Positions 26,901 through 63,297 of a DNA stretch of 64,000 nt are shown here, piece after piece. The number at the start of each line of letters is the position of its first letter. Position 1 is the first letter of the stretch. A program made the position numbers and the translations under genes. Source of the DNA: Dysidea avara (Eukaryota; Porifera; Demospongiae; Dictyoceratida; Dysideidae); contig NC_089274.1 in NCBI RefSeq assembly GCF_963678975.1, forward strand, positions 22,591,133 to 22,655,132, read 5' to 3'. The notes under the pieces were generated by a model, which saw only the letters and a list, made by a program, of their open reading frames with translations, was not told where the DNA came from and made no database searches.

Positions 26901-29900
26901 GCGGGCGGGCGGGCAGGCAGGCAGGCAGGCAGTTAGTCAGTAGAAAATTCCATTGAATAATTTTAAAAATTGTAATAATTTATTGGAAGCTTTTAGGATC
27001 ATACTGAAGGCACTTTTGGGCTTGGTTATACCTAACCAATACCACCAAGGTGCCAGGATGGAGTTGTGAAGTTGGTTTTTGGGTGAATTTTTTGGATAGG
27101 AAAACCCAAATCTCCATGATCCCTAATATACAGCACTACTGTACTGTTTGACAGATCAGATTAAGAACAAGGGAGCTATGTATGATTTTTAAAAAATGCA
27201 AAATAATAATCCGCTTGACAGAATAACTTGAAATCAGTACAATAAGTAGACTAACTATAATAGTGCAAACCTAGAAAGTTCTGAGAGTATTAGTTAAGGA
27301 GATATAAAGCAAAAACCAAACAGGAGAAACAAATGTGTTTAAGATTCTCTAATAGAAGAGTCACTGAGGAAGTAAAAAAAAAAAAAAAAAAAAAAAACAC
27401 ACACACACAATAATGTCAAAAAAAGCTTATCCAGGGTTCAAACCATGGACCCCAACCCCTAAACTTTTTACCACTCTACCACTACTATCAGTTGGTCACC
27501 TTACTTAATTTCTACCTTATAAATAAAAGTTCTAGCTTACATAGATCTATCCATAAGTTGTATTAGAAGTGCTCAGAAAAAATGTACACTCTATTAGAGT
27601 ACTTGCACAGTGTTTATAATTATAAAATAAATAAACACCAAACATATATGTCACACAATCAACGTACTCTAATAGAGCAGTCACCCACACTGCAATCTGT
27701 TGTCACGCCTAGCAGCTAAACTGCTTATGCAGACTAATTGAATTTTCTTACATGTTTCAAGCATAGTTAGCTATACAAATACAATATGAAATGATACCTA
27801 TAATCCTAAAACAGCCAAGCTGCAAAAAAGGGTGCATGCGGCCTTCCAAAAATAGGCTAGTATGAAAAAGATTTGATATCAAATGTGGCAGCCACTATAT
27901 TTTTTAGGGTAAATGGTACCATTCAGTACTAAAATGTTGTCACAAGTCATCCAAATGTGCATGTCAAACAAAAAAAATGTCAGTCCAGTGGTTACACACT
28001 AGACTGACATTATAGCTCAACCAATAGCAATTAAAAGCCATATCAAGAAGATGAATAGAACCTCAGGTGTGCTATAATCTTATGGGCTCTTAGTATAAGG
28101 CCCTTAGAATGAGATGCATATACCAAATGATTGCATTGTATTACATTAAAGTTTATCATGTACTTGCCCTCACAAATAAACTCCATACACATTACCTTCG
28201 CTCTCCAGTTCAGCACAACCATACAATTCCCATTTCAGACAAACTCTACCAGTATTTATTGTGTTAGTTCCATCTACCACAGCTAATGATGTCCAGTTTA
28301 GTGGATAAAGTCTAAATATTTTGCCTCTACTTTCAGTTGGTATGGTGAACTTTATATTGTCAAGATAATCATCACCATTATTGCCTTGAAATATCTTTAA
28401 GAATAATGTTTACAACAGCACTCCACTAATCATTTATGGACTCACCATCGGATTTCCATTCTCATCATTCACAACACAGAATTCTTCTGATTCTAAATCC
28501 ATGTATGCTAACTGAAATCTGCTGACATATCGGGGTTGTCTCTCATCTTCATTAATCTCAATACCTTGTATTGCTCCAGCAGATATGACTACAATGGTAC
28601 CAAACTCCACCTGAATATAAGGTGCATTGTTCACCAAATTAGTCACAATCTGTGAACACCATCCCAGAAAACCAGAGTACGTGTAACTAGCAACTCTACC
28701 CTCCTCTGGTCTCAGTAGCACCCTCTCATTCATGTTATCATAAGTGTAGTGTAGTGGATCATATCCACTAGCTGATAACTGGTCATCACTAACATAGTAA
28801 CGTGTTCCTGATATCAGTGCCTCTCCATTACCGTAACATCTTGAGGCTGAAATAAAATATTTAACTAAGACACGCAGTAGTGTTGTGTGGCCAAGAAAGC
28901 AACATGTCACGCTATGTATAGATTGACACAAAGAAAGAAAATACTGTTCTCACATCTGCATAGCTCTATGGTGCCTTCTCCAAAGCACACCATTTTTACA
29001 TCTTTATATATAACTGTCTGCCAGGTTACAAAGGCTATCCGTCATAGCAGTGCCTTTTGATGGTTTGAAAACAAAGCAGTAGTAGCTACAGAGTTACAAA
29101 GTAAAAACTTAACAACTGTAAATCGCGGGGTCGAGAAACTGTAACAGAACAGTCATTGTGGGGTTAAAATGTGCATGAAAAATGTCAAAAAGTTTACTAG
29201 AGTTTGAACCGGGGACCTTCATACTAAACTCCAGCCTATGATATGGTTGGCTTTGGGGCCATACAGATAAGCTGTGAAATAAGGATGCAGCCTTCAAAAA
29301 CCTGGGTGATAAAAGTTGTGAAATCAAAAGAAATGGTGATAATGGTTATAATGGCTGTGCATTATTAACATTATTACCATTGAAGCTATTTCTTGACGCC
29401 ACCTTTGATTTCACAACTTCTTTCACCCACTAAAACAATGTGTTATATAATAGCCACTACTTTTTGGGCTTCTAAGTAATATAAGACATTAGTGTGGAAA
29501 TATAATTTAGGCTACTTTTGAATAAATAGTAACCGGAAAAGTAATAATTATGTAATAAAGTAATAATACACAGTAATATTGTCATATAAGGCATTATAGC
29601 ATTACAGCTACTGTAAAGCAGAAAACTTTGATGGCATAAAACATTGACAAAATTGTATTTAATTTGCCAAAAATATTCTACCAATTAAAGTACATTTCTT
29701 GCCGTTGTTAGCCATATGCTATGTGTAGTATAGTAACACATGACAAAATGTGATTCGATTTTTTTTCCAACTGAATTCATTGCAGATTCGCCGAACTTTT
29801 TAAAAAGTTTCCTACTATACAGTAATAACTATAATCATAGTTAGGTGTGAGTCCAGTCCAGCCAGTTATAGGCATGGCTGCATGACCCATAGGGCTGAAC

Positions 29901-32379
29901 CAAAGATAAGGAAGCAGCCCACATAGAAGTATGAGAGAGATTTTAACTGCTGCTAGCTGGTTGGCTATAACAAAGTAACTTATTACATTGCTGCAGAAAT
30001 AAAGAGTATAATATGTAATGTATTACATTGACGCCCAACACTCATCTTTCCTGTCCCTCCACGCTATCTACTTTTTATGCTAGGCTCCAGGGGCATCAGA
30101 GTAAAGGTAAAAGTGGTAAGCCTCAGTCCAAAGGCAGCTAGTCTAGGGGAATCTGAAGGTATGTTCCCTGGCCCAGGAAAATTAGAAAATTGTATACTAT
30201 TTGGAGGCAATTTAGGGCTGTAATACTGTATGCAAGGTGCTAGCTAGCTGCTTCTGACAAGTATTTAGGGGATAAAACTGGGCACTGAAAAGCACCTCCA
30301 TAATACTGTTTAAATCTTAAACCCTTACTATTTGAGTTTATTAAGAGATAAATTGCAAGGAATGTTTCCAAAGTATAGTAGTCACAAGGGAAACAAAGCT
30401 GAAGATAAATATATGGTAGAGGCACTTGATACGGACGGAGTGACATGAAGCTGTTCTGGGTAAAAAACAGTGTTGTTTCTGTAAATTGTTGCCATAAGTA
30501 TTGCATGTTCACTACTTTTAATTTTGGCTTCATCAAGTTTGAAAGCTTTGTTTTTATTTCAGTCAAAAAGTGGTGAGGCTTGGGCCTCACTGGTCGCACC
30601 TACTCTGACACCCTTGATGCTAGTGTTGGCTGTTGTAAAAATAGACCTATAATCCACTGCCTTGATGTAGTTATGACTAAAAAACCACCATAGCAGTTTC
30701 CTACATTTTAATCTAAGGTATCAGACTAAACACTTGCATTATAAGAGCACAGTATAGGTCATTGTAGTGACTGCTATTTTGATATTATGTAAGTTGATTG
30801 TTTGAAATTAAGTTATCAATATGACGTAAGTTTACCTGGAGGTGAAGGAGTTGGTGATGCCATTAGTGTAGATGTAGTTTGTGTTGTCAAAGATGACAAT
30901 GGTACAGTAGTTATACTGTGATCAACAGATGAGTTTGTTGATGATACAACACTACTAGTAGGTATATAGTTAATGATTGATGTACTGGTTATGATATTAG
31001 TAGTGGAGGTGGTGATGGTAGATACTTGAGGTATTGAATTCAAAGTTACTATGAAAAGAGTATCATAATATTATATAGTCAACGCGTAAACATTATCATG
31101 ACATTGAACAGATGTTACACATACCTCCACTGACTTTGCAGCCAAAGAATTGAAATGCAATACATGGTCGAATGTGTGAACCAAGAATGACAAATCTTAA
31201 AGTCTGTACACGAATTGGATCCCAAAATGTTTGTTGAAACTTGTCCTCTCTGTTATTCACAAACACCTAACCATATCTGGTGAAAATCACACATTAAAAC
31301 TATTTAATACTTACAGTCATGTTGTTCAGATCAGCATATGTCCTAAATGATGAATTACCAACTGAATACTCCCAAGAATAAAGAGTAACATAATCATCAG
31401 CAGTTGGACCGTCAAGGGCATGATATGTCACTGATGTCAGCAAAATTTCCTCATTGAAGTAGAACGTCACATTTATGGGGAAAGGATCATTTCTATCAGC
31501 ACACCAGAATCTTGGTAGTTCATTGTAGAGCACAATGTATTCTATAGGGTCATATTGATCTTGGGATGTTGCCACAACATTTCTGATCAAGTCTCCAGGC
31601 AGACCAAATGTACAACAGCTTAACTGGTACACTGACTGACATTCTGAAGTATTTGATATAGGACATAAATTGCAAGTACGTCCATATTACAATAACCTAT
31701 TCTATTAACAAATAAAAAATACTCTAATACAGCATACACATAGACATGTACTGTATTATAGACATTAACTACACTAGACATATTTACCCTCTTCTCTCTG
31801 TGGCACACAGCCATGAAGTTCTAGTTTAACACAAGTTCTTCCTAATGACATTGAATACAGCCGAACAATTCTGGCACTAATGGGATGTGGGAGGTCTTGA
31901 AACATTGATGCTGTAATGTCACTATTCAATTGGCCTGAAAACATCTATAGAATAAATATACATTTATATATCTTTGAAGTGTATAGGCATCCAAACCTTA
32001 GTAGTGTTTGAATTAACTTCTGTTACAGCAGTGAGTGGTATGGTTGTACTTGTACCATATGCTAGCCAAAAGCCTTGGACATATCTTGCCTCATCATTTA
32101 TATAAAATCCTTGAGTTTCAACTTGTCGGATGATTACTTCTCTTCCAAAGTCCACCTGAAGGTAAGGCTCATCATCTCCACTGTTGATATATTCAGAACA
32201 CCATCCACGATAGTGGTCAGCTCCTATACGAGCCTCGTAGTTCCACAGTACCTCACAAGATGAGTCCTCTTCAAACAGGCTACCAGGATAACAATTGGAG
32301 TCATTACTATTAGATGTTATCTGATAATCCAACACTGAGAAGTGTAGCCCACTCATGAGAGGATAGTTACCTGTACATT
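20913..32379 (-). CDS. Gene A: four-discoidin-domain single-pass receptor
   Basis: Exons read on the minus strand: 32379-31997, 31944-31788 (discoidin type I), 31643-31315, 31266-31125 (type II), 31048-30836 (Ser/Thr linker), 28846-28446, 28394-28196 (type I), 22298-21973, 21921-21780 (type II), 21733-21499 (membrane helix IVAIVLPIILTLLLVTIVTV, then basic TRFRRK), then tail exons. Type I domains carry GWCSE/GWCSQ and YLQVDFGREV/YIQVEFGT; type II carry WCAD/WCPS and a closing FWEPIRVRQLQL...FGC pattern. The last exon 21174-20913 ends NGTFYEV...TYEVLTSLNN with Tyr motifs. The short tail exons near 21384-21332 and 21266-21227 do not phase cleanly with the conserved NPMYE frame. About 840 residues precede the tail. 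No clear signal-peptide exon was found; the 5' end may lie above 32379. The product should sit in the plasma membrane with the discoidin domains outside. The ligand is unknown. Confidence 0.8.
22644..23030. mobile_element. Possible non-autonomous Helitron start and tRNA-like SINE core
   Basis: The start TCTATATATATAAAG followed by GTCTATCTGTCTGTCTG resembles 5' ends of invertebrate Helitrons. Further on, GCAAGCGGTAGAGCG (22968-22982) and GGTCATGAGCTCAATTCCC (23001-23019) resemble Pol III A and B boxes, spaced as in a tRNA. No CTRR terminus with a hairpin was identified, and the TTC-rich tail after 23030 is not diagnostic. Both readings are tentative. Confidence 0.35.
23172..23318. mobile_element. 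pogo/Tc1-like MITE, degenerate right end
   Basis: The left end is preceded by TA and reads CAGTGAAACCTGTGTAGTAA. The interior alternates GGACACCTTGGGAC and TGTCC(A/T)GATTAT words typical of the family at 9456. The right end is decayed, so the border is approximate. Confidence 0.5.
25980..26247. repeat. Foldback element, about 268 bp
   Basis: Arms running inward from AACAAGTTTAAGGAAAAATT on the left and its reverse complement on the right contain matching words such as GATTAGGGATCATAGA, GTAGGGAAACAAGGGAG, CACCTGCAGA and GGGATTAAATGTT. A short unpaired centre lies near 26100-26125. It has no coding content. It is a MITE-like hairpin of a family distinct from the 11880 hairpin. Confidence 0.8.
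26372..26650. repeat. Two diverged tandem copies of about 125 bp
   Basis: Both copies begin AAAGTGCAG and contain CTTCGCTTTCAGCTATGTT, GTTACACAG and GAAAATACGATGATT or GAAAATACGGATGATT, offset by about 153 bp. They are followed by a GGCAGGCGGGCAGG-type array at 26881-26931. No function seen. Confidence 0.65.
26881..26931. repeat. GGCAGGCGGGC-type microsatellite
   Basis: Interrupted GCAG/GCGG tetranucleotide array, the most G-rich short stretch in the intron. Confidence 0.85.
27370..27480 (-). repeat. Poly-A, CA run and tRNA-like SINE remnant
   Basis: About 23 A residues and a short AC run (27376-27409) are followed by a minus-strand segment with GTGGTAGAGTGG and GGTTTGAACCCTGG, resembling Pol III A and B boxes. 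A related remnant with GGTTCAAACTC lies at about 29195-29270, preceded in both cases by an AATGTCAAAAA word. These look like decayed tRNA-derived SINEs rather than tRNA genes, because no cloverleaf forms. Confidence 0.4.
30836..31048 (-). other. Ser/Thr-rich linker exon of gene A
   Basis: This 213-nt exon encodes a mucin-like segment rich in Ser, Thr and Ile, ending MASPTPSPPGK. The paralogous exon in gene B is 303 nt. It lies between the two discoidin I-II pairs and is likely an extended O-glycosylated spacer. Confidence 0.75.
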
Positions 32380-34142
32380 CTAAAACAGGAAATGCATCCA
32401 TTAGTAAAAATGAACTTTGCATTGTTTTATTATTATAAACGGTTGTACTACATGACCCACCAGTTGCAGGTACCCGGTCTCTGTTGCACAGTAATATTAA
32501 ACATGCAACTAACTGTTATATATCCAGACTACACAAGACATTGTGTCAGTTTCCATTCACCAACAATGAAAACAACTAGATCATATTACCTCATCATATC
32601 TAATTCTTCCAGCCCCACTGCTAGCACTAGGTCATATCAAAGCAGCTGATTTTCCAGGAATGGAACACCCAGTCATTAAACCCCTGATTCTGTTTACATC
32701 ACCCCTACCAATCTTAATATGTAGTTGTTGCCAATCCTAGTGTGTATAAATATCTTTCAGGTTTTCCTGAGCATGACTGACTGCTCAGATATCAAAATTG
32801 ATATTTTTGTACAGGATTGTTAATTTAGTAGAAATCAATACAGATGACATTCTCTTCCCCTGACTCCCTATTCATAATACAAGAGGGCATCAACTGAGAT
32901 TTTTACCACCTCCCACCAGAATCACATGTCAAAATGTTTTGAACATTAGTAATATATTACCATTGAAAAGGCCATGCCCCCAAAATCACATAAAATGCAT
33001 AAAATGGTGCAAAAACACAAGTGATGTTTGTGTACTTTCGAAACACCAGCAACACTATGTGGTGCTACCCACAAAAAATGGCCTGTTTATTACTCACATA
33101 CCTCTAAGGAATACTCCATCTTATTCTCATGGCTCTAATCGCAGTGCATATTACCACCTTTTCACGAATTCTGCCACTTGTTCATCGTTTTACCCAATGC
33201 GTAATGTACACACAGGGAATGTATTGTGGGATACACCAGTTGCCAAGACCAGGGAATTCACCCTAAACTAACTAGTTTAATTAGAATAAACAGTCTGGAA
33301 TACCGTATATGTGAACTATTCTTTGATATTTCGAAGGAATTTGACCAAGAGTGTAACCGCCTTTTTAGTGTTTAGCTAGATGAAATATACGGGAGTTCAC
33401 TTCAAAAAGCATCCGCATGAGTGATCTTGTTTATAATGGTTGGGTTCTTGGTTGTGTAAGTCCAGCATACCTAAGTTTTTATAAACACAAATTGTGTTTC
33501 CTAGTCCTCAGTTTAGTGGGTTTTGAGCTTACCACCGTGTCATTTTAATATCGGTAAATATACCAATGGCTATCAACTCCTAACAGTAGAGATTTCCAAC
33601 TAAATTAAATAATTAACATTCCATGCATTCATTGGTATGACAAATATTGTGCTATTTTCAGGGTCATTTTAATGCAACGCCACCCCAATTGGTGGTTCTT
33701 ATCAAAAGATATAAGCAAAAGAAGTTGACAGTGTGATGATTTTTTGTGTACAGTATTTTCAATGCTTTTACATATATCGCATGGCACCAAACACAATATT
33801 CAAAGTTTCATAAATCTAGATAGGAAACTAATAATGACATGAAATTTTCACCACATAACTATTTTATGGAGAACAACATATGAGCTAGGTAAAACCTCTC
33901 AAGAGTGACCACTTCTTTGTAGACTGACCACTCAGGGCATTACATGAATAAAGCAAGTGATTCACAAATAAAACTGTGTGTATTGTGTAATACTAAGTAT
34001 ACACAGGTACCTAATGCATTTTCAAGGATAACTAACTAGATAAATCAGTAATATTATATAACATGGTAAGTAATGGCATCACAAATCACAATTAACAAAT
34101 ACTTTGGAAACATGACAATCAGATAACAAAATGTAAGACCAA
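32380..34142. other. Upstream flank of gene A, first exon not found
   Basis: The ATG at 32420-32422 on the minus strand reads straight into the first discoidin exon (MQSSFLLMDAFPVLEC), but its leader is weak and gene B has an acceptor site at the same point. No other signal-peptide candidate was seen. No complete mobile element recognised. Confidence 0.4.
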
Positions 34143-39040: not shown

Positions 39041-42000
39041 TTAATTAGATTTTGAATTGACTTCGAAATAAGGTAAGTCTTCATAGGTTGTATCGGATTC
39101 TAAAGGTCCATCTTTAGCATAATCTTGTACTCTATCATATTGGTTGATGCTTAATGTAGAGTCCCTTTTGTGATGCTCCAGCTTTTGGTATTTCTCTTCT
39201 TCGTCATCAACACCAGTTGGCTGTAACTTAGAGTAGAGTGCGTTACATTTAAGAACACTGGCTTGTCTTTCTTGCTGACTAAAACAAAACAATGAACACA
39301 CAATATGTTTGCTGCACTTAAATGCATATCGTGCATACATGTTTACAAGCATGTACAGATCTATAGATACATGCATGTACATCACATGTAGTAGTTCAGG
39401 GTCATATGCACAACACAGTTAACTATTATTCTTTGTATAGATATTAACTCTGTCACATTATGGTGATAACATTGTAGATATAAGACTTTGACCTTATGGA
39501 GTTAGTTCTATTGTGGTGTTGCAACAGTAACATGTTCCTTTGACAGTTCGCTCTACATATTTGATTAGTCACTGCATTGATTTTTGGAACTAAGGTAATA
39601 AACGCTATGGCGTTTAGCCAGTAAATATAGCAGGGTCTGTTACGGCAAAATTTTGCCAAAATCGTGACACGGTAGATTCAAGCACCAAGTCTGGTACAGT
39701 GATTCCTTAGGATATGTAAAGTGATTTCAGAAGGGGTGCCACCATGAACTCACCCTGCACCCCTTCGTACGAACAGCTAATTTTGTCAGTCTGCAAAATT
39801 AAAACTCATCGCATTTACTATTTTGAATAACTTGGTTTCGTAACTACATTCCCAAAGTTTGATAGTTCCTGTTTGTGAGTGAGTAGTCCATGATATCCCA
39901 TAATAGTTTTATTGCCTCTGTGTGAAAGATACATGCATGGCCTAAACAAAACTATAAGTATAGCGAAAATAAAATCAGTAAAATTTAAACATGGCTATTC
40001 GTGAAGGTTTTTCACAATAATAAGAAATTTTGATGTAAGAAAAGAACGAATCCACACTTCATCAGATTTGACGAATTAAATATTGACGAAAATCAAGAAA
40101 TTGCAGATAAAATTTGTACTTTTAAAAGAGCTTACAAGCATTTGATGAATTTAAATTTGACAAATTAAACCGATTCGTCAATTCGTCGAATTTTTCTTAT
40201 GTCAAAATTTCCTTGCTTACAGTACTTATTTTTTGTCGATGTCCATGTTTCCACTACACTAGCTGAGTACTGTACACAGAACATCAATTTCCTGGATACT
40301 TGACCTCCTGAGGTTGTGAACAGGTTCAACTTTATACATACATAACTACAGCCAGAATTTTGCTATAGCTAGCTATACATTTGCACAGTTCTATTTACTA
40401 ATGAATGTTCATACATTGCTGTTCTGTTGTTGAAATTCTTCAAAGTGATGATAAAATCAGATAGAGACCATCTGAATTTGTTATCTGTTATCTCTTTAGC
40501 AATTAGCTAATGTATGTACATTTCATTAGCAAATAAAACTGTGCAAAATTGCAAATGTATAGTTTATACAATGCTGTAGTTAGCTATGCATGCATGAGGT
40601 TGAACCCGTTTACAACCTCAGGGGGTCAAGTATCTAGAAAACTGGTGTTCTGTGTACAGTACTCAGCTAGAGTAGTGGAAACATGGACATTACTTTTGAC
40701 AGAAAATTAGTAACTAGTTATTATTGTGAAAAACCTTCATGAATAGACATGTTTAAATAAATTTTACTGATTTTTGCTAAACTTATAGTTTTGTTTAGGC
40801 CATGTATCTTTCACACGGAGACATAATATTTTAATAAAACTGTTATGGGATGTCATGGACAACTCATTCACAAACAGGAACTATTAACTTTTGGAAAAGT
40901 GGTTAGGAAAATAAGTTTTTCAAAATAGTAAATGCACTAAGTTTTAATTTCGCAGACTGTCAAAATTAGCTGTTCAGACAAAGGGGTGCAGGGTGAGTTC
41001 ATGGTGCCACCACTTCTGAAATCACTTTATACATCTTAAGGAATCACTGTACCAAATTTGGTGTTTTAATCTGCCATGTCACGATTAAATTCATAAAGAA
41101 CCAGAATAATATGGTCAGCATGATAAACAAAACATTTGACAAGTACACAAAACTAGGTAATCAATTACAAGTCAAATCACAAATCATTAAGTAAATAAGA
41201 ATGGTAATCATGCTGATAATAATAAGGGTCCTTGATGACAGTGGATGGTATAGCATTTCACTAATGGGAAGCTCTAGCACTAAAGTACTTTTGAGGTGAA
41301 ATCTTTCACAGTTAGCAAAATAATCTTTTACTCTGGTGTTATACTGAGAATGACAAGCAATCAGTTATCTTGCTCAATGAAACATCAGTAACAAGCACTG
41401 AACCATCAAGTGCACCAATCACTAGGTAGTGCTGCCCCATACACACACAGACTGACACACATGCACAAACAGACAGACAAACACGTACTACATACCCAAA
41501 TACAACACACACAGTGCATATACCTATTAAATTGAATCTGATCATATTGGTCATTTGGCACTTTCAGCAGCAAACTGCTGTTCCTATATTCATGGATACA
41601 AAATCTCAGTGAAGTATTGCTATAAATGTGACTATTTAGAGGTAATTACTGAGTGCTTACCTCTCATACATGGGGTTATCTGATATCATTGACAATGGAG
41701 AACCAGTCTTATACCTACATAATATTATAAGAGATATGTTGCTTGCTATTGTTCCCAAAACTCTTCTTAGCATAGCAGTACGTATATAGCTGAAACAATT
41801 TTAATACATATACATAGTTATATGGCACATATGTAGGCAGCATCATTTACATATATACCGGTGCAATCAACAATTATGTACACTACAAGAACATGCACCC
41901 ACACAGTGACAGTAAACACGACTCTACATGGTTATTACAAAACAAGCTTACCTTTTCCTTGAAAATTTCTTTTTCGCTATTCTCCACAGATAAATTGTTG

Positions 42001-45000
42001 CAATAATCACAAGTAAGGATAGCAAACAAACCGACAACACAATTATTACGACAGTTGAGACATTATTATCATTATTAGATACAACCTCCTCCACACCAAC
42101 ACAGGACAATAATACATTATTTGATGGTGCAGTACAAACACCATCTGATGGAGATGGGGTTTCCACTGAAGTGGTATCGGTATCACCTAAGGATGTATTA
42201 GTTAACCTGACTGGTTGTACATAACACAACAATACCTTCACTGTTCCTGCAGCCAAACAGTCCAACTGAAAGACATGGAGTGATATGCCAGTCTGCTATG
42301 AGTAGTTGAAATTGCCGGACACGAATGGGCTCCCAAAATGAATGAAAGAATGGCCGTACATGATTGTTGTGAAATACCTGGAAAAAAGTATCAAATGTGT
42401 TATATATAGGGAGACAAACTAACTGATCTTCCAAACAGATCCTTGTACTGAGTTAGGTTACACAAATCATCATTAGTAGCATAAGACAAAGAATATGATG
42501 TTATAAAGTAGTCAGCATTTCTGGTCTCCCTCCCTGCTATCACCATTGATGTGATGATCACTTCCTTATCAAAACTAAAACTAATGACCAAAGGAAGATC
42601 CACTCCTTCAACAGATGGACACCAATGATCATCATCATCCTTGTAACGTAAAAAGCTCGTCTTTACCACATCATCATTAGAATTACTAGTGATGTTTGTG
42701 ATCATATCATTAAACTCCTCTGCTTGATCAGGTTGACAGTGATGTAATTCTGTGAACCAGTGTTAATAATTAAAATGAGTGTGGTGAATCAGACAGATTA
42801 CTATTAGATTCCAATGGTTACCTTTACATTAGAATAGCTGATTGTTATATTAGATTGTTAGATTGTGAAAATTTTGGTCTGGCAAGTTGGCTCTACTGCA
42901 CAATTTGTTTGTGTTTGTTGTGTATAGCTAATTCAACTACACAAAAGGGCAGCTAAATGCATCTAAAGTCTAACAAGTAATTTTATGCCAAATTGAGAAG
43001 CTATTAACAAAAGTACAAGAATCCATATGTGTCGCAAGGTCACTGATGATGTGCTCCTGATAATACGTTAATAACCTAGGAGATAACAAGCTTCTAACCA
43101 CGTGTATATAACCTTATGTACATGCCTATACATACACATGCCCTTACATATGAACTCCATACACATTACCTTCACTCTCCAGTTCAGCACAACCAAACAA
43201 CTCCCACTTCAGACAAGCTCTACCAGTATCAATTGTGTTAGTTCCATCTACCACAGCTGATGATGTCCAATTTAGTGGATAAAGTCTAAATATTCTGCCT
43301 CTGATTTCAGTTGGTATGGTGAACTTTATATCATCACGATAATCATCACCATTATTGCCTTGAATTGTCTAGAATAATATTTGCAATGGCACTCCACTAA
43401 TCAACTGTGAACTCACCATTGGATTTCCATCCTCATCATTCACAACACAGAATTCTTCTGATTCTAAATCCATGTATGCTAGCCGAAATCTGCTGACATA
43501 TCGAGGTTGTCTTTCATCTCCATTAATCTCAATACCTTGTATAGCTCCAGCAGATACAACTACGTCAGTACCAAACTCCACCTGAATATAAGGTGCATTG
43601 TTCACCAAATTAGTCACAATTTGTGAACACCATCCCAGAAAACTAGAGTACATGTTACCAATTCTACACTCCTCTGGTCTCAGTAGTACCCTCTCATTCA
43701 TGTTATCATAAGTGTAGTGTAGTGGATCATATCCACTAGCTGATAACTGGTCATCACTAACATAGTAACGTGTTCCTGATATCAGTGCCTCTTCATCACC
43801 GTAACATTTTGAGGCTGGATTGAAACAAAGAAGTATACACACAGGTATATCAATTACAACAATATTATCAAAGCTACAACAATAAAACTAGCTACTGTAC
43901 AAACACTAATTTTGCTACCAAACCATATCAGTGTAGTGCTATATAATTGATTCATGAAGATAACTGGCAGGAACAAATGCAACTTAATTACAACAACTTT
44001 AAGTCCTTGAAGAAGAGTTCTCTGTAAGGACTAACTGCTTGTTTCCTCAGGCTTTGCAGCATAGGTATGATTGTAAACATGCTATGTGGTATTCACTATG
44101 TATCGACCAACAAATTGATTCTACCAAACTACTATAATATGTCACACAACATATAATGTGGATGTGTGATGTATTCACCTAGTGATGAAGGTGTTGGAAA
44201 GGGTTCCACCATCACTGATGATGATGTAGTCATTACAGGTGAAGATGACACCAGCAGAGATGACATCACTACCATGGTACTGACAACAGTGACGGTAGCA
44301 GGTTCTAGTGGTGGACATGACATAGTCGGAATGACTGATGTAGTCCTTTTTGTTGTACTATTAGGGGCACTTGTTGAGGTGGTGGATGTCATAACACTAT
44401 CAGTAGTTGTGGTGGCATCACTAAATGAACTGACTGTAGTAGATGATGGAGCTACACTAGAAATTTGTGGTCTTGATATGACTACATAAAATGAAAAGAC
44501 AAGCACAGTGATTGTACAAGCATTAACATTACACTACTATTATTTTCATACCTTCGCTAAGTTTACAGCCAAAGAACTGAAATGCAATACACGGTCGAAT
44601 GTTCTTGTCGTGAATGACAAATCTTAAAGTCTGTACACGAATTGGGTTCCAAAATGTTTGCTGAAACTTGTCTTCTCTGTTATTCACGAACTCCTAACCA
44701 TATTTGGTGAAACTCACACAAGAAAATTACTTAATACTTACGGTCATGTTGTTCAGATCAGCATATGTCCTAAATGATGAATTACCAACTGAATATTCCC
44801 AAGAGTATAGTGTGACATAGTCATCTGCATTCTCTCCATCAAATCCGTGATATGCTACTGATGTTAACAAAATTTCTTCAGTAAAATAAAATGTTGCATT
44901 ATTTGGGAAAGGTTCATATCTGTCAGCACACCAGTATTTAGTGACATCATTGTAGGTAAGAATATTCTCCTTTTCACCGGGCTTGTCACCAGTACGTTCT

Positions 45001-47903
45001 TCTGATGATACTTCTACATTACTGATCAAGTCTCCCGGCTCACCATAAGCACAACAACTTAACTGGTAGACTGACTGACACTCTGAAATATATAATGACA
45101 AAATTCAATTCTATGATATCAGCAGACCAATTGTTATGGCAATAGCCTTGATCAAAAATTATATTAATGTCCAGGTATCTTCAATTAGAGTAAACATCCA
45201 AGCACTTTAGTGAAGCACTCTTATTAAACCTAAGGCCACCAATTGTAGATTCCTTGTTTCCTGTCACCTACCCGCATGGTAATTTTAGAGCCGCATACAA
45301 ATTTATTATTGCATTTGATAGTCATATGATTTTTGTTTATAAGTACTAGTGTGAGCACATGATGTATTATATTGGAAAAGTAGTGAGTTTCTGATGTTGT
45401 TTAGTGCCAAAAAACATGGATAATTACATAGTTTGAATCCATTCCAGCCTCAGGCCGGATTACAAGCAGCAGATCTCTTCAAGTAGCCATTGGTGAACAA
45501 GATACATAGATGAGCAGGAGTCTAACTCATCTGACAATACGTTATTAATGTGTGTGGAACATATGGAAAATTCATACTGTTGCAGTTGATGGCTAAATTA
45601 GCATTATGACCACAAGCAGATACACCCAGCCAGCAAACTCTATAAAAGCTTTTAAAATTTGGTGGCTGCATGCTCAGAGAAAGTGAGGGGTCTGCAACAC
45701 TTCGAATCTAAACTATGAGATTTGAATCTTGATGAGTCCCAGTGAAATCACAACAAATGTTACATCTCTGCTAAATCTGAGAGAAAAGGCAATTAGGAGT
45801 TAATGGGCTCCCTTTAATATCTTTGATATTAAATAATAGATTTTAACAATATAATAAATAATAACTGCCCGCCTGCATGGTATATTTTGCCTGACTAGGA
45901 CGGGAAACAAACAATTTACAATTGTTGGCCTAAGATGTTTTAAAACTACTAGTTTACTGGTACAATAAAAGCAAGGGAGATCATCACCTGATAAGGCTAA
46001 TATGCAAATTTAATTTCTATACCATATTCCATACAAACCAATAAACTTGCACATAAGGTGATGATCAATGCCTTATGTTTCAGAATATAATGATACCTAG
46101 CTACTAGCTTATTTAAAAAAATGTAAAATACAAAGTAAAAGAATGGACATCAGGGCACGATAATGAAGCACTACTTATTATTAGCAAGTAAAGTAACCAT
46201 TCACATAGTTTTAGTAATATAGCCAGCAAGATACAAAGCACACCTACAATCTATTCTCTTGGAGGTATGGTACACTTTGGAGACACAAGTCCCATTTATA
46301 GCATCGCAAGTACAAAAAAAGGAAAACATGCAGCAAGTGATTACAGTCACTATATGGCTATTTGTGTGTATTTCAATGTGTATAAATAAACTATTCTATA
46401 TATACTAGTACACTTATAACCTTCTGCTCTTTGTGGAACGCAGCCATGAAACTCTAGCTTAGTACAAGTTTGTGGTGGAGGAATCATAGCAATGGAGTAG
46501 AGACGCACTATTCTAGCACTAATAGAATATGGGAGATCTTGCAGCATAGATGCTCTATAGTTGTTCACATCTTGGCCAGGAAATACCTGCAAATTAACAT
46601 ATGTATCTGCAAAACAGTACAAGTGGATATACAATAATAAGGTTTACATTCTAATGGTCACATAAGTATTCCTTGAGCACCAATCCGAGAACCAAAATCC
46701 TTAAAATGTGACACACTTAACTTTATGTATAAGTGCATGAAATACCTATGGCACAGCTCACATGATGCATTTGTCACCATGAAACAACATCATGAAGACT
46801 GTAGAGTTTGTTTGGCGTAGCTACTTTACTTAACGTACATTATAATTATTATACTAGTTAGGACCACTAACATCATGCAGTACTATATGGTGATTGTATT
46901 ATTGCTTATACTTGAGAAAAAGTTGAAAGGGGGAATTACAGCTGTACTACAAGTATAGCTAGCAGTGGTGGAGGAAGGTATGAAAAGTTGGGGGGCTGAG
47001 CATAGCTATTGTAGCTATACATGCACAGTGCATGAAGCGCACTTGCATGCTCCCCCTAACATTTTTTGAAAAAATAAGTGCTATGATATTAAATCTGGAG
47101 GCAGTTTTAGCCAATAATCTTAATCACAGTAATGCTACATATAGCAAGTAAGCATTGCTATAATTCAGCATTAATACTTGAGCTATTAGTCATGCTTACA
47201 AGTGTATACGGTGTTGATCATGTGATAAGTCTTATGATGTCATAAAACACATTTGTTGGGGGTGGGGGCTCTCCCCTGTTTTTCGAAAGTTTAAGGGGCT
47301 TTGGCCCCTGTGCCCCCCTCTTCCGCTGCCACTGCCATATATACTGGCTAGTATTCATGAGTAGCTATTTCTAATTGACTCTCAGTAGAGGTATGGTACT
47401 TGAATACTACAGAGTACTTAAGATACTGAAAATCCATGATTCAGCATTTCTATTATATTGAAAATATTGATCATTAAGAGTTCACTTAACTTATATGGTA
47501 CTGACGTGTAATGTTCAGCCTACCTTAGTAGTGGTTGAATTTACTTCTGTCACATTGATAAACACTTCTGCTGCACTGGTGCTATAAGCTAGCCAGAAAC
47601 TGGTAATGTACCTAGCTTGAGTATTGATCAACAATCCCTGTGTCTCAACTTGCCGTATGACCACTTCTCTCCCAAAATCCACTTGTAGATATGATCTAAC
47701 ACTAGAATTATGTTCAGAACACCAGCCACGATAGTGGTCAGCTCCGATACGACCTTCGTAACTCCTCAACTCCTCACAATCTGAGTTCTCCCCAAACTGA
47801 TCAGTAGGCATATAGCAGGTAGTGTCACGACTATTAGATGTTATCTGATAATCCAACACTGAGAAGTGGAGCCCACTCATAAGAGGATAGTTACCTGTAC
47901 ATT
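39041..47903 (-). CDS. Gene B: four-discoidin-domain receptor with NPxY-type tail
   Basis: Exons read on the minus strand: 47903-47524, 46586-46421 (type I), 45082-44742, 44693-44552 (type II), 44481-44179 (Ser/Thr linker), 43814-43417, 43368-43170 (type I), 42749-42424, 42377-42236 (type II), 42186-41952 (membrane helix STVVIIVLSVCLLSLLVIIA, then RIAKKK), 41714-41661, 41583-41524 and 39278-39041. All junctions I checked are GT-AG and phase-compatible, giving about 990 residues. Discoidin landmarks include HYRGWCSEH, SYLQVDFGREVVIRQV, KYWCADRYEPFP and FHSFWEPIRVRQFQLL. The tail contains SDNPMYERN, NDQYDQIQF and TTYEDLPYFEV; NPxY-type motifs recruit PTB or clathrin-adaptor proteins in animal receptors. 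Exon lengths match gene A almost throughout (142, 199, 326, 142, 235). The signal-peptide exon was not found. Cell-surface adhesion or ligand binding is inferred. Confidence 0.85.
39661..41085. mobile_element. Inverted-repeat element in the last intron of gene B
   Basis: The left arm starts ATCGTGACACGGTAGATT and the right arm ends with its diverged complement (AATCTGCCATGTCACGAT). Matching inner words include TACAGTGATTCCTTA, CACCCTGCACCCCTT, AGATACATG(C)ATGGCC, and ACTGTACACAGAACA. The arms run to about 40415 and 40500, so nearly the whole 1.4 kb is a diverged palindrome. A smaller element is nested in the left arm only. No coding content. It accounts for most of the 2.2-kb intron 39279-41523. 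Confidence 0.75.
40024..40211. mobile_element. Nested MITE, 188 bp
   Basis: The ends GAAATTTTGATGTAAGAAAA and TTTTCTTATGTCAAAATTTC are inverted repeats. GACGAATT words occur inside both ends. The segment has no counterpart in the right arm of the larger palindrome at 39661-41085, so it inserted after that palindrome formed. Confidence 0.75.
44179..44481 (-). other. Ser/Thr-rich linker exon of gene B
   Basis: This 303-nt exon encodes a mucin-like segment (SSTTVSSFSDATTTTDSV and similar), 90 nt longer than in gene A. The opposite strand is also open for 107 codons, a consequence of the Ser/Thr/Val codon bias and not a gene. Confidence 0.8.
46963..47334. mobile_element. hAT-like MITE in the first intron of gene B
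   Basis: The left end CAGTGGTGGAGGAAG and right end CTTCCGCTGCCACTG are inverted repeats of the same style as the 11097 element. Subterminal G/C runs (TTGGGGGGCT, GTGCCCCCCTC) are also shared. The flanking octamers do not match. Unlike its relatives it lacks an obvious CTCTATTAGAG motif. Confidence 0.7.
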
Positions 47904-48001
47904 CTAACAAGTAGTATTAAACTCAGTAACATAGTCTGACAGTATATAACAATACACACATGGTTTATTTAAATACGGCAATACTATGAGCAGCCTTTGA
48001 C

Positions 48002-56671: not shown

Positions 56672-57381
56672 ATAGCTATGGCACAGTGTACCGTCAAGTC
56701 TCTTGTATTCTCAACTCATTTGCTGAATGCTCTATTAGAGTAGTCAATTGTTTGTTAGAAATCTTGATTATATTGGCATTTTTATTTTGCTCCCTGGCAT
56801 TGATAGCTAGTTCATGTATAAACAAACCTCATGTGGTTTTCAAAAGTGGTAGACACGACAATGAGTATATCACATAACTTGTTATGGCCTTTTTATGGGT
56901 ATATAAAACCAGAGTTCCATATATCACACTTGTCCATTGCACTTCCCTTAGTTGTATGATACAATACCATGTGTCTTGATGTAGTAGCCAAACTGTTTTG
57001 GGGATAAATGATTGCTTAAAGTGATATGGCATTTCTAATTCTGGTTGCTACATAATTGTGTTGTATGCTGTGGTACAATACTGTTCGTGGCTGCTACGAT
57101 TAAAGTTGGCATTGGCTAGCAGATCCTATTGGTAATGTGTTTATGAACAGTGCTCTCAAACAGGCTGGATTGCTCATGCCATTCATAGGCTGACTGTAAT
57201 GTCGAAACTGGTGGGCAAAGACCCATTGCTATTCTGTTATTGATAGTGGATTTCAAATGTTTTTATAGAGATGCAGTATCCATGTTACTTATTGCAATCA
57301 TTTATAACCCCTTTGCATACAGCTGTATTATCATACAATATTGAAGCTGCTTCCTTTCCATTACTCCATCTTCTGCTTTAG

Positions 57382-57668
57382 CAACATTGCAACGGTCGTT
57401 TCGAATGTACACCCCAGTTGGGAATCTAGCAGAAAGTTTTGACGAGTACGAGGACCCTAGCTGCTACCACTGGTGCTGTCATCCTTGCCACTCGGGACGT
57501 GAGTGGTACAGCATCTCACGAGCAGGATGTCTGCGTCAACTTTGTCTAATCCTCATTTTGCTCCTGCTGGTGGCCACGTGTGGTTGGCAGTGTGGCTGTT
57601 GTGCAGCAACAATCTTCTGCTGTCACTGTACATGTGAATGGATGGAGGAATTTAGTGACGATGACTAG
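57382..57668 (+). CDS. Cys-rich single-pass membrane protein, array copy 1
   Basis: The coding exon follows an acceptor-like TTCTGCTTTAG and runs to TAG at 57666-57668. An internal ATG at 57405 gives an 87-residue product. Order: an acidic N-terminus (ESFDEYED), a Cys/His segment (CYHWCCHPCHSG), the shared motif EWYSISRAGCLRQLC, a hydrophobic helix (LILILLLLVATCGW), a Cys cluster (QCGCCAATIFCCHCTC) and an acidic end (MEEFSDDD). The family is not one I recognise. The Cys pattern after the helix suggests palmitoylation or metal binding, but this is inference. The upstream exon, if the acceptor is used, was not found. Confidence 0.65.
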
Positions 57669-60351
57669 GCTGCACAACTGCATGCCTTTATTTAATTCAT
57701 TTGTAAATATGAAATTTATACACAGTTCGATTTAACATTAAATTTGTAAATTTTTAATGGCAATGTGTGCAACAAGAGGGGTACGGAAGGGAAGCAGTGG
57801 CTTCAGAAGGGAAGAAGTAGCTGTAGTTAGTTGGTGTAATAAAGGAGTTTACCAGAGTGTACTTTTCTGAGGATGTAATGTATAGCTTTACACTGTATGA
57901 CATAACTGTAATGGGTGTCTTAGTGTGTACCCCACCCCTGTTATCCCAATGACATCCCTCAAAATGGACACCTTACACACATTTAGACCCCTGAAATAGG
58001 ACATCTTTCTAATATTGACACCTTTGAGGATAGGAGGGGACTGTCACTATTTCAGTCCATGCTGTACTATGTGTAAGATACTTGAAAACTTTAACAACTG
58101 CTTTTATGAAAATCTGTGTATTTGAATTTTGGAAAACTATTCAGTAGTTTCATGATAAATGTTTTCAAACAACTCACCAAGGATATAGCATAATATAAAA
58201 TATTATTCACCTTTCAGAGCATTCTCTATACTGGAAATTGTCTGCTTGTTTTCTTGAAAAGTATAGTAGTGTCATGTGTGCTTACAAGAGGGTGGAGGAG
58301 TGGCACCTTCCAGGCTTCAAAATGGAATGCTAGAGATGAAGTTGTACAGCTGTAATGGCATTTTGGCAGCTATAATGTAGCAAAATTAACACAGAAATCA
58401 TCTAGCTAGCTGTAGAAGGCAATCCATCCCTGCACTACCCATAAAGCTAGGTCCTTACTAAGGCTAGTTGAGGCTTGTCACACCATCCAGGAGACACAAA
58501 GCCTTGTGTAGGTAGTTGAGGAATGCTGAGACTTAGCTACTCAATGGTATGGTTACCCATTGTGTGATTTGGATCATTTTTTGTTGTAAAATCTAGTCAC
58601 ATACAGTATGTACTGTTTAGCAACTCTATTTTGAAGCATATAATACACGTATGTAGGTACTGCTGTATGTTTCTGTTGCTATTTATTGCACCCACTACGT
58701 CGGTGACATGCAGTGTTTTATGTATGATGAAGAAAACATTCAATAACTTCTAGCCTAACAATAAATACCTGTAAAAGAAAGCTGTCATAGAGAATTCAAA
58801 TTCCTCATCATAAGCACTGTATTGAACCAACTGTAGGGCAACTGGGACAACCATTCATTGAACTGGACATTTCTCAGGTCCATATGTGGACACTACACTA
58901 CAAAACACTCATGAAGGAGATATTTAGTGATACGGGTTAACTTGTACATAGTTGTTGTTGTAGTTAACTGTTGGGTTAGTAGATTCAATTTAGAGCACAT
59001 ACATTTGGTACAGCAGAACCGTGATTATACAAACAGTAGTGATGACTGTTCTATTAGAGTATTTTGTCAACAGGTGTATGTTCTATTAGAGTATTTGAAT
59101 GCATCTCTGTATGTAAATGAATGGGCTTCATTAATTCACTTTCTGAGCACTTTTGTGATTGAACTGGTACACAAGTGTTCAGATAAAGAAGGTTCCACTG
59201 TAGAGAAATAGTGAAAATTTTGACACAACTGCTCCTCTTGAAATTAAGCATCATGCTTGGCCCTTGATCTTGTGTTGTTCTGTTAGTCACCATAAACTGG
59301 GTCATGGTGCATACACAATAGCCCAGTACAAGTAAGCACTTAATAACCTGATGAAGTAATGGAGTACCTAGGTTCAGTATGAAATAACACTTAAAGTATA
59401 CACATACATGCATTCACTGTTGGTAAATTGTTTATCTAATACTTACAAATGCACACTTTCAAATTTTACATACAAGTAGAAGGGTCCCATACCTGTAACT
59501 ATATAGTCAGTGGCTTATTAAATTATGTACTTGCCTCTTTAGTACCTAGGCATGCATGTATGTCCTGTAAAGTTCTGAGTTATGCATCAAAAAGATGCCA
59601 TAAATCAGCAAATTAGCTAGGGGGTGTGACACTTGAGAAAGTTCCCTTGAGTAGTCCAGTATGATCTTGATAATGTGAGTCTTCATTAACCAAACCCCTA
59701 GAGTGCTTAAAGTGACTGTTCTATTAAAGTGTTTTGTCAACTGTTTGAAATATGTGTCTGTTTTATTAGAGTAATTGAACAGAATATGAATGGGCTTCAG
59801 GTATCCAAACTACTTCATTCACAGTATCTGCATGGTCTTGTGATTGAACTGGTGCACACAGATATTCAGATAATGGGGGGTCCCAGTCCCATTATGGTAT
59901 TTTTTGTTCACCAACTTGATCACAAGACACCAGTTAAAAGAGGCAAACGTGCTTGGGTCTAACAGCCTTATGATCAGTAGTAACTCAAGTAGCTGCCAAC
60001 CATTGTCATTTTATTCCTTGATCTCTCGTCACTGCCCCCATCAATTTTAATTATTTGTTACAGATCATATGAACGCACTTTTTATATGATAGAGACTTAG
60101 AATGAATGATCAAGTGACTGAATGAGTGACTGAGAGGAAATGCATTAGCTGTGCAAATAAATGTAGCAGAAAAATAACTAAGGATTCCACTATTGTGTTA
60201 CAGGGTGCATGTAGACCTTACACCATTCAAGATCAAGATACTCTAATAGAGCAGTCATATCCTGTAATAAAACAGTCAAGTATGTCTATGAGTGTACAAT
60301 CAATAATTGCCAGCAATATAACAATGCTAGATTGACACCTTTAGTGCTAAC
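57669..60351. other. Space between array copies, with MITE and motif copies
   Basis: Holds the MITE at 59011-59200 and a diverged second copy at about 59711-59890. No gene recognised. TTGAGGCTTG and GTAGTTGAGG words near 58460-58530 hint at another decayed repeat. Confidence 0.45.
59011..59200. mobile_element. pogo-like MITE, 190 bp, TA target duplication
   Basis: The left end CAGCAGAACCGTGATTATAC and right end GATAAAGAAGGTTCCACTG are imperfect inverted repeats flanked by TA (59009-59010 and 59201-59202). The interior holds two TTCTATTAGAGTATTT motif copies and TGTGATTGAACTGGTACAC. The stretch 59711-59890 repeats this interior but lacks clear ends. Confidence 0.75.
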
Positions 60352-60385
60352 ATGGTAGGTTACAGTACACATGCTCTATACACAG

Positions 60386-60738
60386 CTATGGAATACTCAT
60401 TTGGGGAAAGCTACTTCAGTGAGGAAGACCCAAATGATCGCCGCAGGCGACCTCGTCCGTTTAAATGGAATTGGGCAACAGTTTGTATTGCAATTGTGTA
60501 TATTGGCTGTGAATCTGGAGAGAACTGGTATAGCATCAGAGATGCTGGATGGTTACGGCAATGTTGTTGGTTTATTATATTACTGCTCATCATTATGCTG
60601 TTTGGTACTGTGTGCGGCACTTTCGTGACTTGTGGTTACATTTGCTATAAGTGCGTAACATGTGACTGGTGCTATTACAGTGATGAATCTGCGTGTGTCT
60701 TGTATGATTTAGATGAAGGTTGTTGTTATTGTTTTTAG
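60386..60738 (+). CDS. Cys-rich single-pass membrane protein, array copy 2
   Basis: The frame can start at ATG 60352 (MVGYSTHALYTAMEYSFGES) or be entered by splicing at CTATACACAG|CT; the second matches the acceptor-like position of copies 1 and 3. Order: acidic/basic N-terminus (SEEDPNDRRRRPRP), ENWYSIRDAGWLRQCC, a hydrophobic helix (WFIILLLIIMLFGTVC), then Cys- and Tyr-rich CGYICYKCVTCDWCYY and an acidic end. Up to 128 residues. It lacks the CGCC doublet of the other two copies but keeps the same layout. Confidence 0.65.
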
Positions 60739-61149
60739 TGTGAGGACTGAACAGATATCTTTTTCATAATTTTCTTTGAAATGTGTATATTTATTTTCAG
60801 TGGTTTTCATATTTTTATATCTTATTTAAATCTATTAATTGTAAACTTAAATTAGGGAGTGGTGCTTATTCAGTATTTACAAGATGTGAATACAATACAT
60901 TTCCAACTTTGGTATCCAGAATTGTAATATGTTAATCTGTAAATGTAGTTTTATGTTTTAAACAGGGTTTTAGCTGTGAAAGTATATCATGAGTACAAAC
61001 ACGTAGATGGATTGGTGTACTGGTTAACTTTTTAAATTATCCAATACCAGTACTACAGGTGTAGATACAATAGAAATATGTGCCATCTTATTGTAGTATC
61101 ACTTTGTATGACGGATTTGCAGTAAAAAACCTTACACTCTGACTGTGTA

Positions 61150-61400
61150 ACATAACCATAGTAGTATTGGTGGTGGAGGAGAGCACACATGATATGTTTC
61201 AGTGGAATTGTCCACAATGTTTTCTGGTGACAATGCCTTGAGCATGAGAATACCAGACGAGCTGGATGGCCATTATATGACTAAGATATTTTAGCTTTTC
61301 TTCATCGTGATGCCTGCTTGTTGGTGTGGCTGTTGTGTGACTGGCTGCCATATACTTGTGAATTAATTGCTGAGGGATGATGGTTTATATAATGCATGCT
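61150..61400 (+). pseudogene. Decayed array copy
   Basis: GTGGTGGAGGAGAG, ATGTTTCAGTGGAAT, GAGCTGGATGG and GGTGTGGCTGTTGTGT occur in the same order as in copy 3 (62225-62450), but the reading frame is not maintained. A broken member of the Cys-rich family between copies 2 and 3. Confidence 0.6.
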
Positions 61401-62201
61401 ATGACAATGACTGGATAAGCTTTTGGTTACTTGGTTTATATGTATAGTCAAACTGCTCATCATCATTCTAATACATGCAACCCTGATGTTGAGAATGTAG
61501 CTTATTGTATGTCATCATCTACGATGTGTGTTGTGATGAATCTTTAAATACAAGTATAAACATTTTACTCATATCATAGTCGGGACCACTCAGATAGCAA
61601 AACTATATCAGAAAAATTGGTAAATGAACCGTGATCTCAAACTGCAAGGTCATATACCATATAGAATAAAAGTTTGCCGAATTTGGCGATTTGCTATAAT
61701 ACAAAATCACCAAAGTTCAACCCTCCATTCAATCGTAGCACCTGAGATTAGCATTTTAATAGCTAAAGAAAAAAAGAGTTTATTTTGCCAAATACAATTT
61801 TAGCTGGCTATTCACCGAAGTTTATCCCTGCTGAAGTTTTCCTCTATACTGTAATCAGCATATTATTGTATTACAGTATAATATGTATATTAGGTTCAAC
61901 TTCTTTAGTTTGGTAGTGTTGTCTGTGGCATTTTATTTAAATATCCCATTGTATTATGTCATCTACAGGTGGTTATTAAGTGAGTAAACACATTTCCAAT
62001 TCCAACTAATCTGTACAACCACATGAAGTAAGCATGTATGGATTGGATTGGAATATGGTAAACTATAGTTACTGTCTGTAATTCCTCAGTCATTGCTACA
62101 AGTGTAGCTGCACTGACCAGTAGATGTTAAACAATGTGTGTGTGATGTTTACATCTATTTGCACCACATACATACACTGACAATGGTTGTATGTTACACA
62201 G

Positions 62202-62575
62202 CCAAACTGGAAGGTTCATTTCGGGACAGCAGTACTAGTGGTGGTGGTGGTGGTGGTGGGAGAAACATGTTCCAGTGGAATCATAGACATCGTCGATGCT
62301 GTTTTCTGAATTGTGACAGTGCATGGGACAAAGGAGATGAGTTTTATAGTATCAGAGGAGCTGGATGGCTGCGACAGATATGTTTGATTTTCCTATTGTT
62401 GTTCTTCATTGGAGTGTGTGGCTGCTGGTGTGGCTGTTGTATAACTTGCTGCTACCTATGTGCAAAGAGTAGTAAATTTTTACCTTACTGTGATTGTGAT
62501 GAGGACTGGGACTGCTGTGAAGATAGTGTTTGTTGTTCATGCTGCGGTTGTGATGAATGTTGGGATGAAGATTGA
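62202..62575 (+). CDS. Cys-rich single-pass membrane protein, array copy 3
   Basis: The frame can start at ATG 62183 (MVVCYTAKLEGSFRDSS) or be entered at ATGTTACACAG|CC. Order: Gly run (about 8 Gly from a GGT microsatellite), HRHRRCCFLNCDSAWDKG, the motif EFYSIRGAGWLRQIC, helix LIFLLLFFIGVCGCWC, then CCITCCYLCAK and a long Cys/Asp/Glu tail (CDCDEDWDCCEDSVCCSC). The longest and most Cys-rich member. Spacing of the SF residues (GSFR, YSFG, RSFR) after the putative splice site is the same in all three copies. Confidence 0.7.
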
Positions 62576-63171
62576 ATAATAATCTATTATGTTTGTTTGT
62601 TTATTTTTGTTCAATGTTTACATTGTATTGATTTTGTATTTTTGATGTAAATTGCATGAATATTAGGTAATATTCATGCTGAAATATATACTGTTTAAGA
62701 CATTTTTTCTGAGATTCTACTATTTTTCTACCTGTATGTGCTTTAGTTATGTGGGTACTGACTCCCGAGTAGGTAAAATTATAATACTATTGATGTAGGT
62801 ATACTAGTATATAGTGTAGTTGTTTTGAATTGGTCCAATACCATTGCCACAAGTGTAGACAGTGGGGGGAGGGGTGTTATATATCCACACCAATACTTTT
62901 TCATCTGGTTTAACGATTGAATAATTTGACACTGATGAAACACTTCAATATTTATGTTACAGAATACCAAAAATTTAAGGGGGGAATTTTTGACAAACTT
63001 CAAGTGAACTGTTCAAATTTACCCCCTTTAAACTTTTGCGCTATATGTTATCTCTTCAGTTGGTTCAATATCAATGCTCAACTTACATAGGTGGTAATAT
63101 TAAAGACCATACATATTATCTGAACGTATCACTTCACCACATGCATTAACATGCTCCTGTATGTTACACAG

Positions 63172-63297
63172 CCATACTGGAACATTCATTTTGGGACAAC
63201 AGTAATGGAGGGGAACGTACATAATATTATATGTTCCGTTGACACCATCGATGGTGTTTTCTGAATTGTGAAAATCTATACATACGCTTTGGGACAA
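63172..63297 (+). pseudogene. Truncated array copy
   Basis: CTGTATGTTACACAGCCA, CTGGAA, TTCATTTTGGGACA and TGGTGTTTTCTGAATTGTGA match the start of copy 3 (62188-62320), but the segment stops before the YSI motif. A TTTGGGACAACAGTAAT word is repeated at its end. Nonfunctional remnant. Confidence 0.6.

Follow-up and report, generated by a model that had tools for sequence, protein, structure and literature searches.

A tandem array of genes for small cysteine-rich, putative membrane proteins of an apparently undescribed family in the sponge Dysidea avara

Introduction

The genes described here form a tandem array on contig C3 of the Dysidea avara genome (550.8 Mb, 108 contigs), within a stretch of 64,000 nt (C3:22591133-22655132; hereafter, the window). 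They comprise three open copies (c1, c2 and c3) and two decayed copies (c4 and c5), and their predicted products carry a short motif directly before a hydrophobic helix. The described proteins to which they can be compared are the CYSTM proteins and the sarcoglycans. In the available portion of PMC10217909, CYSTM proteins have a helix rich in Cys at the C-terminus with an acidic residue after it, 3–4 consecutive cysteines and 5–6 Cys in the helix, and two yeast members are needed under manganese excess. As for the sarcoglycans, the available portions of two papers conflict: one limits them to cnidarians and bilaterians (PMC4582122), and the other places some sarcoglycan classes in sponges (PMC10293626).

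The products of c1–c3 resemble CYSTM proteins in being small, with a variable N-terminus, a Cys-rich helix near the C-terminus and an acidic end. They differ from them in having no Pfam match, an additional motif before the helix and a tail of 18–41 residues. The sarcoglycan likeness concerns c2, which reads Y-x-[IV]-x3-GW-x2-[RQ]-C just before its helix, as in sarcoglycans gamma and delta (PF04790).

Organization of the array

The original prediction had proposed three open and two broken copies on one strand, and this layout was confirmed by open frames, tblastn and DNA matches: all five copies lie on the + strand at one chromosomal locus. From stop to stop, the open frames span 57345-57668 (c1), 60331-60738 (c2) and 62117-62575 (c3). 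In window coordinates, the copies are as follows (pN and pS, nonsynonymous and synonymous differences).

57382..57668, + strand: c1, open exon; first in-frame ATG at 57405, stop codon at 57666-57668; identified by open frame, tblastn and pN/pS
60386..60738, + strand: c2, open exon; ATG at 60388; identified by open frame, tblastn and pN/pS
~61160..61354, + strand: c4, decayed copy; frame broken, motif and Cys region partly recognisable
62202..62575, + strand: c3, open exon with the longest Cys/acid tail; first in-frame exon ATG at 62267; identified by open frame, tblastn and pN/pS
63158..63287, + strand: 5' part of c5, decayed copy; stops in frame, DNA identity to c3

When the 64-kb window was searched by tblastn, c1 recovered c3 (E 4.5e-5) and c2 (E 8.9e-5), and c2 recovered c3 (E 2.6e-6); the weakest directions were c2 to c1 (E 8e-4) and c3 to c1 (E 0.002). 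At the DNA level, c4 matched c3 at E 1.4e-7 with gaps that are not multiples of three, and c5 was identical to c3 at 85% over 33 nt and at 90% over 31 nt. The distance from c4 to c3 is ~1.1 kb and that from c3 to c5 ~1.0 kb. Non-coding sequence upstream of the acceptor is common to c3, c4 and c5; these three copies therefore arose by tandem duplication at the DNA level. Past the window end, a 3' piece (L006:202-330; C3:22655201-22655329) reads AGWLQQICMIILL; it was matched at E 1.5e-5 among the fetched loci and at E 0.2 against the whole genome. This piece may be the missing 3' part of c5, ~0.8 kb away, or alternatively a separate relic.

Conserved core of the open copies

In all three open copies the motif [WF]YSI-x3-G[CW]LRQ is followed by one hydrophobic stretch and then by a Cys/acid-rich tail, as had been predicted. 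The six frames of the window were scanned for the motif, with eight specified positions scored. A score of 8/8 was found at three places (57504, 60526 and 62342, all +), no place scored 6 or 7, and 20 places scored 5/8.

57504..57539, + strand: c1 motif, WYSISRAGCLRQ; six-frame motif scan
57540..57611, + strand: c1 hydrophobic helix, 24 codons after LRQ; GxxxG (GWQCG) at 57582-57596
60526..60561, + strand: c2 motif, WYSIRDAGWLRQ; six-frame motif scan
60562..60633, + strand: c2 hydrophobic helix; GxxxG (GTVCG) at 60604-60618
62342..62377, + strand: c3 motif, FYSIRGAGWLRQ; six-frame motif scan
62378..62449, + strand: c3 hydrophobic helix; GxxxG (GCWCG) at 62420-62434

The core can be aligned without gaps over 46 residues, with pairwise identities of 21, 22 and 22 of 46. 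The claim that the motif is the most conserved part held, with 9 of 14 columns invariant within the motif stretch and 7 of 32 elsewhere (Fisher p 0.008, to be read in the knowledge that the 14-column stretch was picked after looking at the alignment). A cysteine occupies the second place after LRQ in each open copy. Moreover, an invariant G-x-x-C-G (GxxxG) step, absent from the original prediction, stands at one fixed place of the helix in c1, c2 and c3. The 24 residues after LRQ hold 5, 4 and 7 Cys (c1, c2 and c3, respectively), and the tail beyond them varies in length (18, 34 and 41 residues), in Cys number (4, 8 and 12) and in net charge (-6, -5 and -10). The N-terminal part is variable and little is recognisable outside the core; a short stretch after the acceptor can be aligned (KLEGSFR in c3, TLQRSFR in c1 and MEYSFG in c2). 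An AlphaFold2 model of c3, built from the three sequences, was poor (mean pLDDT 51.4). It contains one long helix (residues 55-89) of moderate confidence and two weak helices (27-44 and 108-114), and ten-residue blocks averaging a pLDDT of at least 70 occur only at residues 51-80, inside the long helix.

Over the core, pN was 0.40, 0.33 and 0.31 and pS was 0.82, 0.64 and 0.67 (c1-c2, c1-c3 and c2-c3, respectively); as synonymous sites are near saturation, no rate ratio is reported. In a codon bootstrap of 2000 draws, the fraction with pN at or above pS was 0.001, 0.005 and 0.0025 for the same pairs. When the 14-column motif was taken alone, the direction pN < pS was kept, with fractions of 0.0685, 0.049 and 0.0115 and a 95% interval excluding zero for c2-c3 only; the remaining 32 core columns gave 0.004, 0.0285 and 0.028. 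Third codon positions were the most divergent in all three pairs, and the motif residues were retained across synonymous codon changes. The comparison of nonsynonymous with synonymous change, proposed earlier as a check on the family, thus left it unrefuted. Because the similarity is above chance and nonsynonymous change is lower than synonymous change in every pair, c1, c2 and c3 are very probably genes, as judged from their sequences.

Each open frame starts near a phase-1 AG (exon starts 57382, 60386 and 62202), and the same holds at 63172 in the decayed c5. The 14 nt before the AG contain 12, 8 and 7 pyrimidines in c1, c2 and c3, respectively. The putative common splice-acceptor phase of the open copies is suggestive only and weakly supported. 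Upstream, c3, c4 and c5 have in common a block with the ending CAAGTGTAG or CAGGTGTAG, a possible donor; on reading by eye, no ATG frame was seen to run open into this block in c3. Since an in-frame ATG lies inside all three exons, a single coding exon per copy is also possible.

Relatives in the genome and in databases

Protein searches of the sponge's own genome with c3, c1 and c2 gave 5, 5 and 4 matches, respectively; only the best candidates are scored in such a search, and a diverged cluster could escape it. Four matches fell outside the array (L005, L011, L012 and L016), all with internal stops, and no fetched locus beyond the array kept as many as 6 of the 8 motif positions; these four are taken as chance matches. 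With all three queries, the best candidates thus comprised array matches plus four stop-broken places, and no transposon-type dispersal was found. Neither Pfam nor PHROGs gave the open copies a significant match to a transposon protein. The proposed refutation by a match to a transposon-encoded protein, covered in part by these results, was not borne out.

No significant relative of c1, c2 or c3 was found in Pfam or PHROGs, and none was found in the PDB with c2 and c3 singly or with a three-row profile. The CYSTM Pfam profile gave no match up to E 10 with any of the three proteins or the three core segments, in searches where the HMMER filters remove most matches above E ~0.1. By eye, no run of 3–4 Cys occurs in the open copies, the longest being 2. 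For comparison with the 5–6 Cys helix in the available portion of PMC10217909, the 24 residues after LRQ hold 5, 4 and 7 Cys, and 18, 34 and 41 residues follow. Profile scans of IMG/VR and GTDB returned 32 and 78 pattern-matching stretches, none of which was confirmed, and no match was obtained in phages (with c3) or plasmids (with c2); beyond Pfam and the PDB, the libraries searched are not expected to contain animal genes. Among the matches listed for literature queries (GWLRQ; sponge Cys-rich tandem transmembrane; CYSTM; GxxxG/palmitoylation), no description of such a family appeared at the level of the listing. The following were taken as chance: c3 with SLC38A9 (PDB E 0.14 and 0.2) and with a TMCO1 partner (0.9); c2 with profilin (PDB E 0.5); the three-row profile with Na/K-ATPase beta (PDB E 0.99); c2 residues 17-38 with phrog_1610, of unknown function (E 0.023); c2 with zf-C2H2_ZNF462_11 (Pfam E 7.2); and a c3 segment with GerA (Pfam E 0.52).

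The sarcoglycan likeness was confined to c2: PDB matches to sarcoglycan delta (E 0.25) and gamma (E 1.4) came from this copy only, and sarcoglycan was not recovered there with the three-row profile (A1). Against PF04790 (cut-off 32.5 bits), c2 scored 8 bits (E 2.1) and c1 and c3 gave no match; segments of c2 reached E 0.25 and 0.51, not above the cut-off. When the c2 juxtamembrane block was shuffled, none of nine shuffles matched sarcoglycan, and therefore the residue order of the block matters for that match. However, six of the nine matched other families at E ≤10, the best being WBP-1 (E 0.012), and the true c2 segment matched a SNARE (0.21) better than sarcoglycan (0.25). BLASTP against the first exon of the genome's sarcoglycan gave E 0.63 for c2 and E 84 for c3 (c1 was left out). 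Sarcoglycans have a large extracellular domain. In c1–c3, by contrast, there is no ectodomain, and the stop follows 18–41 residues after the 24-residue helix segment. Kinship was rejected on the shuffle control and on a clear, separate sarcoglycan in the genome that keeps GIYGWRKRCLY; because of these two results, common descent of c2 with sarcoglycan appears unlikely. The likeness may instead be convergence on a membrane-entry design of an aromatic residue, Gly-Trp, a basic residue and Cys.

The separate sarcoglycan gene lies at C11:17513192-17514859 on the - strand and has at least two exons (L018 and L019; 57.2 and 45.6 bits, both above the Pfam cut-off). Its membrane entry reads GIYGWRKRCLYLF and agrees with that of the sarcoglycans in PDB 9c3c. 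This gene bears on the conflicting statements about sponge sarcoglycans in the available portions of PMC4582122 and PMC10293626.

Genomic surroundings

A hAT-type transposon remnant lies at window 2505-5067 (DUF4371, E 8.2e-24; hAT dimerisation region, E 9.5e-8). F5/8 type C (discoidin-like) exons were found at 12856-13554 (+), 21724-22305 (-) and 31964-32515 (-), with look-alikes at 28434-28949, 41948-42762, 43369-43887 and 44727-47916 (-). Four of these were scanned: one was above the Pfam cut-off (21727-22305), two were below it and one (43372-43887) gave no match. By eye, the frames resemble one another as in a tandem gene array. No Rfam match at gathering score and no tRNA was found in the window, and it is judged animal-like in content because of the hAT and F5/8 type C fragments together with this negative result. 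Words of the type TGTTCTATTAGAGTA are repeated at 59043-59103 and 59713-59783, and also at 55888 and 56721, and appear to be fragments of a dispersed repeat. To the right of the array, a weak SH2-like exon (L006:1940-2080; E 0.042, below cut-off) and, ~20 kb away, a NACHT NTPase exon of an NLR-like gene (L007:8777-9823; E 3.3e-11) were observed.

Discussion

The array represents a genuine small gene family, apparently undescribed and of an ordinary kind. To this extent, a real tandem family, the overall interpretation first offered is supported. The explanation that we favour, at a probability of about 0.4, is a lineage-restricted family grown by local tandem duplication, whose small single-pass proteins would end in a Cys/acid tail and associate in pairs by way of GxxxG. 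Each gene would encode one such membrane protein, and the charge pattern suggests a cytosolic N-terminus and an outside C-terminus. The stretch [WF]YSI-x3-G[CW]LRQ-x-C would then lie on the cytosolic side of the membrane, where it would serve as an anchor in the interface or as a contact for a partner and offer a lipidable cysteine. The invariant GxxxG step would let copies pair with themselves or with one another, and disulfide formation or metal binding would fall to the exposed Cys/Asp/Glu tail. We infer this mechanism, from topology and pairing to lipidation and tail chemistry, from anatomy, as we do the upstream exon and the lineage restriction.

Several observations weigh against this explanation. 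Every conservation statement rests on three sequences. Within the 64-kb window, c1 and c2 have no DNA match to each other, and neither has a clear DNA match to c3 outside the coding core; therefore their tandem origin rests on position and protein similarity. They may be older duplicates, or the flanking likeness may have been lost. E-values do not tell relics and chance matches apart: the relic just beyond the window (0.2) scored worse than L011 (0.015) and L016 (0.097). GxxxG can appear by chance in Gly/Cys-rich sequence. The near-helix charge rule is marginal, with a net +2, 0 and 0 in the 15 residues before the helix and -3, 0 and +1 in the 15 after it, and these charges do not decide topology. 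By chance, 23% of 36-nt stretches hold a phase-1 AG with at least 8/14 pyrimidines, a level that c3, with 7, does not reach. Finally, no upstream exon before c1, c2 or c3 was found in a search for donors and ATGs in which the donor model was rough.

The undecided near-helix charges leave room for the opposite topology, in which an upstream exon would supply a signal peptide, the YSI/GW stretch would lie outside and the Cys cluster would face the cytosol and be palmitoylated, in the manner of receptor tails or membrane-fusion proteins. Phase 1 introns are common after signal-peptide exons, and the putative intron here is in phase 1. The parts also follow the same order as in the membrane-fusion protein described in the available portion of PMC2805634, namely a juxtamembrane aromatic part, a hydrophobic stretch and a Cys-rich motif. 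However, the whole tails are acidic (-6, -5 and -10), and no convincing signal-peptide exon was found: two hydrophobic candidates that begin with an ATG, one ahead of c2 and one ahead of c3, do not resemble each other, and c1 has none. By the positive-inside rule, an acidic tail is disfavoured on the cytosolic side, and we regard this arrangement as unlikely. Only slightly more probable is metal or redox buffering at the membrane in the manner of CYSTM proteins, with the Cys-rich helix end and tail binding metal and the array giving dosage. The 5, 4 and 7 Cys after LRQ, followed by 4, 8 and 12 more, agree with it, as do the Cys-rich helix of CYSTM proteins with its acidic residue and the need for two yeast members under manganese excess in the available portion of PMC10217909. 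Against it stand the absent CYSTM match up to E 10, the absent 3–4 Cys run and the strong differences in Cys number and spacing among the copies.

It is quite improbable that one gene uses the copies as alternative last exons behind a single upstream exon. Each frame opens directly behind an AG of equal phase, and a first exon of its own could be recognised for none of the three; yet the latter is no more than a negative finding, obtained with the rough donor model, which non-coding or very short first exons would escape, and all three exons have an in-frame ATG. The same search found no candidate first exon in common among the copies. Chance or relic open frames without function would fit with the two broken copies, and open frames as long as 107-152 codons are not unusual here, where 33 frames of ≥110 aa overlap the window's first 55 kb, but pN < pS in every pair and motif residues retained despite synonymous codon changes make this very unlikely. 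As an extension of the favoured explanation, the paralogues could form mixed pairs via the entry motif and GxxxG, with differing tails and possibly alternative last exons, as a combinatorial surface-tag system of one lineage; we give this idea very little credence.

Lineage-specific clusters of this type are common, and without expression or relatives no wider question is settled by this one. If transcribed, the array would be a compact case of an apparently lineage-restricted membrane family that is born and decays by tandem duplication, with a testable motif.

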